DNA of 64,000 nucleotides, taken from assembly GCF_001989615.1 (NCBI RefSeq), contig NZ_CP019067.1, positions 2,666,001 through 2,730,000 on the forward strand, read 5' to 3'. The translations under genes and the position numbers were made by a program. Positions 12,471-53,323 of this stretch are shown here, piece after piece (the first letter of the stretch is position 1; the number at the start of each line of letters is the position of its first letter). This DNA comes from Halorientalis sp. IM1011 (GTDB lineage: Archaea > Halobacteriota > Halobacteria > Halobacteriales > Haloarculaceae). A model generated the notes under the pieces. The model was not told the DNA's origin. It did not search any database and saw only the letters and a program-made list of their open reading frames with translations.

Positions 12471-12988
12471 GTCCGACAGTACAGCACCGCGACAATAAAA
12501 CGTACCGGCCGGTCCCCGCCTTTCGTGTCGAGATTGGCGCGCGCGCACCGCTCGCACCGCACTCGAATCTCGGACGGTACATCCTGCCGCTGTCTGTTGA
12601 TTATCCCCTCTCTCGTCGGGCTGAATCACGGATCGAAGCCACTCCGAACGCGTCGCGACACCACGTACCCGAACCCCCTCCGATTTCCACTGGAAACCAC
12701 TCCCCCGTCTATCGGTTCTCGAAGTTTCGATTTCACTTTCACTCCGGTCTGGCCAGCCTTAAGAGTGGTCGGTTCCTCGCAAACGAACGTAGCAAACACG
12801 CCCGCGAAGCTGTGCTTGCGGGCACGGAATGACAAGCAAGTTACATCTGTATCGCCGCGAAAAAGCCCCAACGACAAGGGTTATTTGCCACCCACGTTAA
12901 CACGAGTTCCGTTACAAATGACAGGTCAGAGGCCCAGGATCGAGTCGCGAATCGTACGCCAGACAGCGCCGGAGAGGGGGGAGCGTCC
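12471..12988. other. Long leader region upstream of nrdJ
   Basis: These 518 bp contain no convincing full-size gene. The left part is the promoter of the small membrane gene (cgttttattg on its strand). The right part leads to nrdJ and contains a hairpin at 12800-12823 and a 24-codon reading frame at 12918-12992, both listed separately. I looked for a cobalamin riboswitch because nrdJ is B12-dependent, but saw no B12-box. Confidence 0.5.
12800..12823 (+). promoter_or_regulatory. Hairpin in the nrdJ leader region
   Basis: GCCCGC-g-AAG (12800-12809) pairs with CTTGCGGGC (12815-12823), a 9-bp stem with one bulged G and a five-base loop. It lies about 95 bp before the short upstream reading frame. 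It may be a terminator for a transcript from the left or part of a regulatory leader. Confidence 0.35.
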
Positions 12989-12992
12989 GTGA
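12918..12992 (+). CDS. Upstream short reading frame overlapping the nrdJ start (24 aa)
   Basis: An ATG at 12918 opens a 24-codon frame (MTGQRPRIESRIVRQTAPER and four more residues) that ends with TGA at 12990-12992. The nrdJ start GTG is at 12989-12991, so the two share GTGA. A TATA-like ggttatttg lies about 35 bp upstream of the ATG. The frame is probably at the 5' end of the nrdJ mRNA and may couple translation to nrdJ. The peptide is basic, unlike normal haloarchaeal proteins, so the act of translation may matter more than the product. Confidence 0.4.
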   Translation: MTGQRPRIESRIVRQTAPERGERP

Positions 12993-50257: not shown

Positions 50258-50685
50258 TCCGCGTCCTCCGCAGTGTCCGTGGGTTCGGTCGGCTGGTCGT
50301 CTCCACTGCCGGTATCCCCGAACCCGCGTTCCCGAACCCGGGCCAGCGCCGCCCCGACCTCGCCGTCGCTGGTCGCGCCGTCGGTCAGCCCGTTGTGCCC
50401 GGTGACGCGCTGGTTCCCGCCGTAGGCCACGAGGTCGACCTCGCGCTCGTCGCCCGGCTCGAACCGGACTGCGGTGCCCGCCGGCACGTCCAGCCGCATC
50501 CCGAACGCCGTCTCCCGGTCGAAGGCGAGCGCCCGGTTGACCTCGAAGAAGTGGAAGTGCGAGCCGACCTGCACGGGCCGGTCGCCGGTGTTCGCGACCG
50601 ACACCGTGGCCGTCTCCCGACCCTCGTTGATCGTGACAGTCCCCTCGCCAGGGTCGACCTCGCCGGGAATCAGATCACTTCCCAT
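50254..50685 (-). CDS. ureB: Urease beta subunit UreB
   Basis: The 143-residue protein starts [20 protein letters not shown] and has [40 protein letters not shown] and [20 protein letters not shown], the full beta-subunit pattern. A 30-residue acidic tail follows. An in-frame GTG nine bases upstream is possible, but the ATG at 50685 gives the usual start; agaggtga just upstream is Shine-Dalgarno-like. It is the first gene of the seven-gene operon. Confidence 0.96.
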
Positions 50686-50726
50686 CTTCGTCACCTCTCG
50701 CCACTATCTTTTGCCGATTGTCCATG

Positions 50727-51694: not shown

Positions 51695-51950
51695 CGCCTC
51701 CGTCGTCGGCGGTTTCCGTCGCCTGTACAGTCGAGCGACAGTTGTCCTGTCAAATCTTCTACATTCACTTTCTCACCATCCGTAATTGGCTGTGCTAATT
51801 TTGACCGAATGTTTGGGTTTCGAGCGAGTCCCGGATTATATTGCTAACGTGTGGGGTCTGTCCTTATACAATACGGCAGAATCTTGGGAGAATTAATACC
51901 TGCTTGGAAACTGTTATAAGTACGTGCCAATCACAGTCTTCCGTCGAAAG
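51695..51950 (+). promoter_or_regulatory. Promoter region of the urt operon
   Basis: This A/T-rich 256 bp contains several TATA-like blocks: attatattgc, ccttatacaatac, gaattaatacc and tgttataagtac (51912-51923). The last is about 37 bp upstream of a short upstream frame. No stand-alone gene is visible. The density of A/T blocks suggests multiple start sites or regulator binding. Confidence 0.45.
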
Positions 51951-52052
51951 ATGGTGGACGTATATTCGGAAAATCACGGAAGTATTGGCTACAACTCGAA
52001 CGTAACTGCGGACTTTGTGGACGGTCGTCCTCGCGGGGGTGTGATGGCGTGA
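51951..52052 (+). CDS. Upstream short reading frame overlapping the urtA start (33 aa)
   Basis: An ATG at 51951 opens a 33-residue frame (MVDVYSENHGSIGYNSNV, then 15 more) with a stop TGA at 52050-52052. The urtA start GTG is at 52049-52051, sharing GTGA with the stop. The TATA box tgttataag about 35 bp upstream would place this ATG very near the 5' end of the urt mRNA. It may couple or control urtA translation. The same arrangement occurs before nrdJ. Confidence 0.45.
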   Translation: MVDVYSENHGSIGYNSNVTADFVDGRPRGGVMA

Positions 52053-53323
52053 CGAAACGCGTCAGTCGCCGCGAGTTGCTCGCCGGGGGAGCCGGCGTCG
52101 CGACGGCCTCGCTGGCCGGGTGCGCGTTGCTCGGCGAGAGTGGGAGCGGGACGATCACGCTGGGGATCCTCGAAGACCAGTCGGGGAACTTCGCGCTCAA
52201 CGGCACGCCCAAACACCACGCGAGCATCCTGGCGATCGAGGAGATCAACGACGACGGGGGGATCGACGGCCAGCAGGTCGAGTACGAGGATCCGGACCCG
52301 CAGTCGGACAACGACCGCTACCTGGAGCTGACCCGGCGGATGATCAACCAGCACCGGGTCGACGCGCTGTGGGCCGGCTACTCCAGTGCCACCCGGGAGA
52401 CGATCCGGCCGACCATCGACCAGAACGATCAGCTGTACTTCTACACGACCCAGTACGAGGGCGGGGTCTGTGACAAGAACGTCTTCGCGGTCGGGCCGAC
52501 CGCCCGCCAGCAGCTCGGTGCCGTCCTCCCGTACCTCGTCGAGGAGTACGGGTCGGAGATCTACACGATCGCAGCCGACTACAACTTCGGCCAGCTCTCG
52601 GCCGACTGGGTGAAGGTGCTGGCCGACGAGAACGACGCGGAGGTGATCGGCGAGGAGTTCATCCCGCTCAGTAACTCCCAGTTCTCCTCGACGATCAATC
52701 GCATCCAGGAGGCCGACCCGGACTTCGTGATGTCGATGCTGGTCGGCTCGAACCACACCTCCTTCTACGAGCAGAAGGCCTCCGCGGGGCTGGACGTCCC
52801 GATCGGGACCTCGACGGCGATGGCCCAGGGGCACGAACACCTGCGGCTCGATCCGCCGGCGATGACCAACATCTACGCCGGCGTCAACTACATGGAGGAG
52901 ATTCCGACGACGCGAAACACCGAGGACGGTGGCTTCGTCGACCGGTACTACGAGCGCTGGCCCGACGCCGCCTACCTCAACGAGGAAGCCGAGAACAACT
53001 ACTTCTCGATCTACATGTACAAGCGGGCCGTCGAACAGGCCGGCACGACCGATCAGGCCGAGGTCAAGGAAGCTCTGGAGTCGGGTATCACCTACCCCGC
53101 GCCGGAGGCCCCGGAGGGTGAGGAGATCGAACTCGTCCCGGAGACCCACCACGTGAACCACCACATGTGGGTCATGCGGGCCGACGACGAGCACAACGTC
53201 GAGGCCGTCGACGACATGGTCATCGACGAGACCTTCCTCAAGGACACGGTCGGCTGTGACCTCACCGCGGAGGACGAGGAGACCCAGTACACGCCCCAGG
53301 ACTACTACGAGGAGGCCGGGTAG
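52049..53323 (+). CDS. urtA: Urea ABC transporter substrate-binding lipoprotein UrtA
   Basis: UrtA (424 residues) binds urea outside the cell. It starts with a Tat signal (RVSRRELLAGGAGVATAS) and lipobox LAGC, so it is exported folded and lipid-anchored. The mature protein has the Leu/amide-binding fold: TLGILEDQSGNFALNGTPKH, VDALWAGYSSATRETIRPTI, FYTTQYEGGVCDKNVFAVGP and MLVGSNHTSFYEQKASAG. The Tyr/Glu-containing FYTTQYEGG is typical of UrtA proteins. The GTG start at 52049 overlaps the short upstream frame. It is the first gene of urtABCDE. Confidence 0.95.
   Translation: MTKRVSRRELLAGGAGVATASLAGCALLGESGSGTITLGILEDQSGNFALNGTPKHHASILAIEEINDDGGIDGQQVEYEDPDPQSDNDRYLELTRRMINQHRVDALWAGYSSATRETIRPTIDQNDQLYFYTTQYEGGVCDKNVFAVGPTARQQLGAVLPYLVEEYGSEIYTIAADYNFGQLSADWVKVLADENDAEVIGEEFIPLSNSQFSSTINRIQEADPDFVMSMLVGSNHTSFYEQKASAGLDVPIGTSTAMAQGHEHLRLDPPAMTNIYAGVNYMEEIPTTRNTEDGGFVDRYYERWPDAAYLNEEAENNYFSIYMYKRAVEQAGTTDQAEVKEALESGITYPAPEAPEGEEIELVPETHHVNHHMWVMRADDEHNVEAVDDMVIDETFLKDTVGCDLTAEDEETQYTPQDYYEEAG

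Follow-up and report, generated by a model that had tools for sequence, protein, structure and literature searches.

Overlapping gene pairs have been studied for translational coupling in Haloferax volcanii and E. coli, and 13 of 14 tested pairs (nine from Haloferax volcanii and five from E. coli) were strictly coupled (Huber et al. 2019, PMC6728339). Shine-Dalgarno (SD) motifs are described there as aiding reinitiation at the Haloferax volcanii pairs. On the monocistronic sod mRNA, the SD motif is reported to be non-functional for initiation (PMC7531240, citing Kramer et al. 2014). Translation of the uPPE2 upstream open reading frame (uORF) of Mycobacterium tuberculosis was shown experimentally to be required for the downstream gene, mostly through termination-reinitiation (PMC11260477). 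In Haloferax volcanii, uORFs of 15-31 amino acids were reported in long 5'-UTRs, with 16 such frames in 97 transcripts (Babski et al. 2016, PMC4983044). Finally, a review on translational coupling put forward the idea of 'ribosome-delivering' short ORFs (PMC12548453).

The locus analyzed here is a short frame directly before urtA in Halorientalis sp. IM1011; the window is the whole analyzed stretch of 64,000 nucleotides (contig NZ_CP019067.1, positions 2,666,001 to 2,730,000). The frame resembles the Haloferax volcanii pairs of Huber et al. in the stop/start overlap (ATGA or TGATG), in the SD motif within the upstream frame and in the haloarchaeal host. In the pairs described there, however, an ordinary protein gene stands upstream, whereas urtA is preceded by a short peptide-free frame behind a promoter. 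The uPPE2 uORF shares the overlap (AUGA) but is bacterial, carries its own SD motif and follows a B12 riboswitch, while no riboswitch was found in Rfam searches at urtA or nrdJ. The uORFs of Babski et al. are likewise haloarchaeal leader frames, theirs with mapped transcript starts. In contrast to urtA, their leaders measure 150-250 nt and overlap coupling is not described in the uORF section of that paper; its uORF table names neither urtA nor nrdJ. The short ORF of the coupling review serves only to drive translation of the gene behind it, as is argued below for urtA; it is a proposal, whereas the urtA case adds evolutionary evidence in archaea. In passages of PMC12542753, nrdJ is mentioned only as an expressed gene, and a search of the open-access literature returned no leader frame of urtA, nrdJ or ureB in haloarchaea. 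The class of mechanism is already known; what appears to be new, as judged from the open-access literature, is a uORF that lies close to the promoter, is peptide-free and is conserved in haloarchaea at urtA, nrdJ and ureB.

The short frame and its promoter

The preliminary description had placed a 33-codon frame about 35 bp after a TATA box, with its TGA overlapping the GTG start of urtA, and this arrangement was confirmed (Table 1). The frame comprises 33 sense codons (MVDVYSENHGSIGYNSNVTADFVDGRPRGGVMA), and its ATG lies 37 nt from the first and 32 nt from the last base of the TATA box. An alternative in-frame GTG at 51924 would extend it to 42 codons, but this codon is probably too near the TATA box to be transcribed. 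The similar layout described for nrdJ was found as well, with the short frame starting 37 nt after a TATA-like box. The identity of urtA is given by a match to TIGR03669 (urea_ABC_arch, 637 bits vs a cut-off of 495), and the next frames 3' of it are urtB and urtC. Its closest named relatives are the UrtA proteins of Halorientalis regularis, pallida and persicus (87-88% identity). A urease-like operon is located upstream on the opposite strand; Haloarcula hispanica and H. marismortui have urease beta and alpha annotated as the divergent neighbors of urtA, and matching frames are found in the window.

Table 1 Features of the urtA, ureB and nrdJ short frames, in window coordinates
Feature	Position	Strand	Remark
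24-codon short frame overlapping the nrdJ GTG (12989)	12918..12992	+	TATA-like TTATTT at 12881-12886
16-codon short frame overlapping the ureB start ATG (50685) by 11 nt	50675..50725	-	relatives compared
TATA box TTATAA	51914..51919	+	predicted transcript start near 51943
Short upstream frame (uORF), ATG (51951), 33 codons, TGA (52050-52052)	51951..52052	+	frame conserved, peptide apparently near-neutral
SD-like GGGGGTG ahead of urtA, in the last part of the short frame	52035..52041	+	match to GGAGGTGATC
GTGA overlap, urtA start (GTG at 52049) and short-frame stop	52049..52052	+	NTGA at 65/68 urtA loci
urtA, urea ABC transporter substrate-binding lipoprotein	52049..53323	+	TIGR03669 equivalog

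The 68 urtA loci have in common that AT content peaks some 40 nt ahead of the short frame and not ahead of urtA itself. From the first base of a TATA-like box to the start of the short frame, the distance is mostly 38-42 nt. With the TATA-to-start spacing that we take to apply, the predicted transcript start falls about 8 nt before the short-frame ATG in the window, and a 5' leader of only about 7-14 nt would be expected at urtA. In several loci (among L009, L011, L018-L028, L042, L046 and L050), an in-frame GTG is present 12 nt before the uORF ATG. It could coincide with the expected transcript start and allow fully leaderless initiation of a frame of 36-37 codons. Many urtA promoters further share CCTTATAC ... 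GTATAAG-like half sites before the TATA box (51855-51900 in the window and the same region in L009-L073), which are possibly a nitrogen-regulator site.

Conservation of frame and overlap in haloarchaea

To compare the urtA upstream region, 108 loci with 82 distinct upstream regions were gathered from the family, the order and named contigs. Among the 80 loci with >45% UrtA identity, 68 carry an ATG frame of 15-45 codons that ends in NTGA on the urtA start, with a length of 32-34 codons in 54 of these 68. The remaining 12 were inspected by eye. The same frame with a GTG start is found in L012 and L029, and the overlap measures 8 nt in L085, L087 and L136, 1 nt in L123 and 14 nt in L130. The frame is doubtful in L031 and L129, no coupled short frame was seen before urtA in L140, and L035 was dropped as a divergent match. 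At L086, the upstream ATG, located ahead of the UrtA signal peptide, runs in frame into urtA without a stop; this may be a natural fusion in which the leader frame has turned into an N-terminal extension. Natrialbales-type leaders (L030, L033, L133 and L134) seemingly contain two tandem short frames, each overlapping the next.

Some starts in this gathering had been accepted for having the overlap. Instead, one fixed script was used that picks the predicted start nearest to the alignment start and drops 13 loci with late alignment starts, 25 duplicates and 2 loci without a start. A coupled ATG frame of 15-45 codons was found at 65/68 urtA loci, which are related and thus not independent counts (42 clusters at <60% upstream identity). 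Over the 75 nt that precede urtA, 64/68 loci keep the coupled frame open, compared to 7 and 27 loci for the other two frames; the number of stops in this stretch over the 68 loci is 7 in the coupled frame vs 153 and 63 in the others. In the gene tables for Haloarcula hispanica, where urtA is located on a plasmid, and for H. marismortui, urtA is annotated from the overlap codon onward; these tables, which describe themselves as incomplete, have no entry for the short frame. ATG is the start codon of urtA and nrdJ in most relatives, so GTG starts are not essential and the part assigned to them in the preliminary description is not supported.

The same architecture is present at nrdJ and ureB. 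With the fixed script, 48/49 nrdJ loci were coupled, mostly with frames of 24-25 codons; these loci comprise the 30 most similar ones and a second batch of 20 hand-picked from the same list across genera, one of which was too short. The overlap type varies among relatives (-4 in 30, -1 in 13 and -8 in 5 loci): the peptide changes and the coupling stays. A search of Rfam at nrdJ returned only RF01902 at 20.8 bits, far under the gathering score of 90, and this sub-threshold hit was taken as chance. The comparison of ureB, the first gene of the divergent urease operon, was designed as a negative control and came out positive, with 20/26 loci coupled; it is counted as a third case and not as a control. 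In the ureB leaders of L004-L064, the coupled short frames have 14-22 codons. The first bases of the ureB short frame resemble those of the urtA frame (TGGACAAACAGTC vs TGGACGAACGTTCGG).

Peptide, leader signals and chance

A functional microprotein that is cotranscribed and coupled with urtA by happenstance would fit the retention of frame, start and length and the greater likeness of the first residues. The peptide, however, appears to evolve almost freely. Beyond codon 7, the pN/pS of the short frame is 0.82 (0.65-1.09, codon bootstrap), i.e. near neutral and with no sign of purifying selection on the amino acids, compared to 0.07 (0.05-0.08) for urtA in the same strains, as calculated from aligned sequences. 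In 14 Haloarcula-type short-frame sequences of the same length, differences are spread evenly over the codon positions (859/748/895). Peptides from different genera look unrelated, a family search with the urtA short-frame peptide gave no match, and a microprotein is considered improbable. The mean GC content of the short frames is 49% vs 64% for urtA. Because the frame is conserved while codon positions are even and pN/pS is 0.82, the sequences indicate that frame and overlap are under selection and that the peptide is nearly free.

The first codons of the urtA short frame are more alike than the rest, with D, E/D and R being commonest at positions 2-4, and a DNA or RNA element may therefore also be conserved there. 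Many urtA loci have a TGGACGAAC-like stretch whose distance to the TATA box is fixed (41-44 nt). In L031 this stretch has another register relative to the ATG, and the TGGACAAACAGTC stretch at the ureB short frame is similar to that of urtA. Such a stretch may be a regulator site or a preference of the initiation region. These observations would be expected if a conserved DNA operator or RNA element 3' of the promoter set the spacing and the open frame were a by-product. Yet the stretch spans only about the first 10-20 nt, and an element of this kind leaves unexplained why one frame is open over 75-100 nt with its stop kept at the gene start. Searches of Rfam gave no match at the urtA leader, and the folds of five urtA leaders are ordinary (z -1.2 to 1.6), as opposed to those of a riboswitch or structured leader. 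An operator or RNA element as the whole explanation thus seems unlikely. Sitting in the leader of a gene for nutrient uptake, the short frame would also suit attenuation, with ribosome stalling on its peptide as a sensor of an amino acid or metabolite, but neither a conserved codon run or residue block nor an unusual structure was found. An amino-acid-sensing leader peptide was rejected for lack of a conserved codon run, and attenuation as such is very unlikely.

To estimate how often the layout occurs in this genome, a sample of 464 kb (the window and 20 stretches of 20 kb) was searched, in which a simple gene caller defined 163 leading genes. An overlapping ATG frame of 15-50 codons near a possible start is present at 16 of them, so a single case in one genome would be weak evidence. 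A TATA-like box in addition to the overlapping frame is found at 5/163, two of them strong, and a 6/6 TATA match at promoter distance (37 nt) together with an overlapping frame only at urtA and nrdJ. The general mechanism suggested in the preliminary description is, in the sense of a genome-wide one, not borne out by these numbers; the layout marks certain genes (urtA, nrdJ and ureB), not the whole genome.

As controls, four leading genes were taken from 8 listed by a random draw on the sample, and their loci were fetched from the same family; the gene names are readings of the translations and not results of family searches. The fixed script found coupling at 7/29 loci of a phosphate permease-like gene, at 2/27 of a glutamate synthase-like gene and at 0/15 and 1/24 of the other two, i.e. 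at 10/95 loci together. Two further genes, kept out of these 95 loci, had been picked for a chance short frame in this genome. Since the carboxyltransferase gave 3/29 and the ferredoxin-like gene 7/9 coupled loci, the latter with unequal lengths, the coupling criterion is not free of false positives. At urtA (65/68) and nrdJ (48/49), coupling is well beyond the random controls, and to this extent the earlier claim of coupling beyond chance is upheld. A chance frame in a GC-rich genome that is never translated would account for the 16 sampled genes but hardly for conservation in 65 of 68 relatives vs 10 of 95 loci, and chance appears to be excluded by conservation in relatives, not by this genome alone.

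Proposed ribosome delivery by termination-reinitiation

The most plausible explanation, to which we assign a high though not overwhelming probability, is that the conserved promoter-proximal uORF serves by being translated and not by a useful peptide, and that ribosomes reinitiate on urtA. Transcription would start about 8 nt before the short-frame ATG, and ribosomes would initiate at the short frame in the near-leaderless way that is usual in haloarchaea. A ribosome would then translate about 33 codons and halt at the TGA overlapping the urtA start, where the same ribosome or its small subunit could reinitiate on urtA, assisted by the SD-like stretch in the end of the short frame. Two features of coupled gene pairs are found: the stop/start overlap, present as GTGA in the window and conserved in the relatives, and an SD motif within the last part of the upstream frame, which is frequent but not essential in such pairs. 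In 62/68 loci, the interval from -17 to -4 before urtA matches GGAGGTGATC over at least 4 nt, compared to 20% of windows inside the short frames.

Haloarchaea mostly begin translation near the 5' end. As the SD motif is reported to be non-functional for initiation on the monocistronic sod mRNA and overlapping pairs of Haloferax volcanii are coupled, a gene starting about 100 nt from the transcript start, as predicted for urtA, would benefit if a preceding frame supplied it with ribosomes. The urtA short frame may also have a regulatory use. A more far-reaching idea, rather speculative and on balance doubtful, is that in Halobacteriales the urt, ure and nrdJ operons are gated at translation by ancient uORFs that are peptide-free, and that a shared TGGAC-R-AAC-like element at the starts of the urea uORFs places initiation at this gate under a nitrogen regulator, whose control would reach transporter and urease via obligatory reinitiation.

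Prokaryotic uORFs may be noise, genes of microproteins or devices that deliver ribosomes, a question to which the urtA, nrdJ and ureB families speak. Similar short frames have probably been overlooked elsewhere, because these frames have no entries in the Haloarcula hispanica and H. marismortui gene tables. Haloarchaea are a natural place to test ribosome delivery, as translation in them mostly starts near the 5' end. The retention of frame, length and overlap together with a near-neutral peptide points to selection for translation itself.
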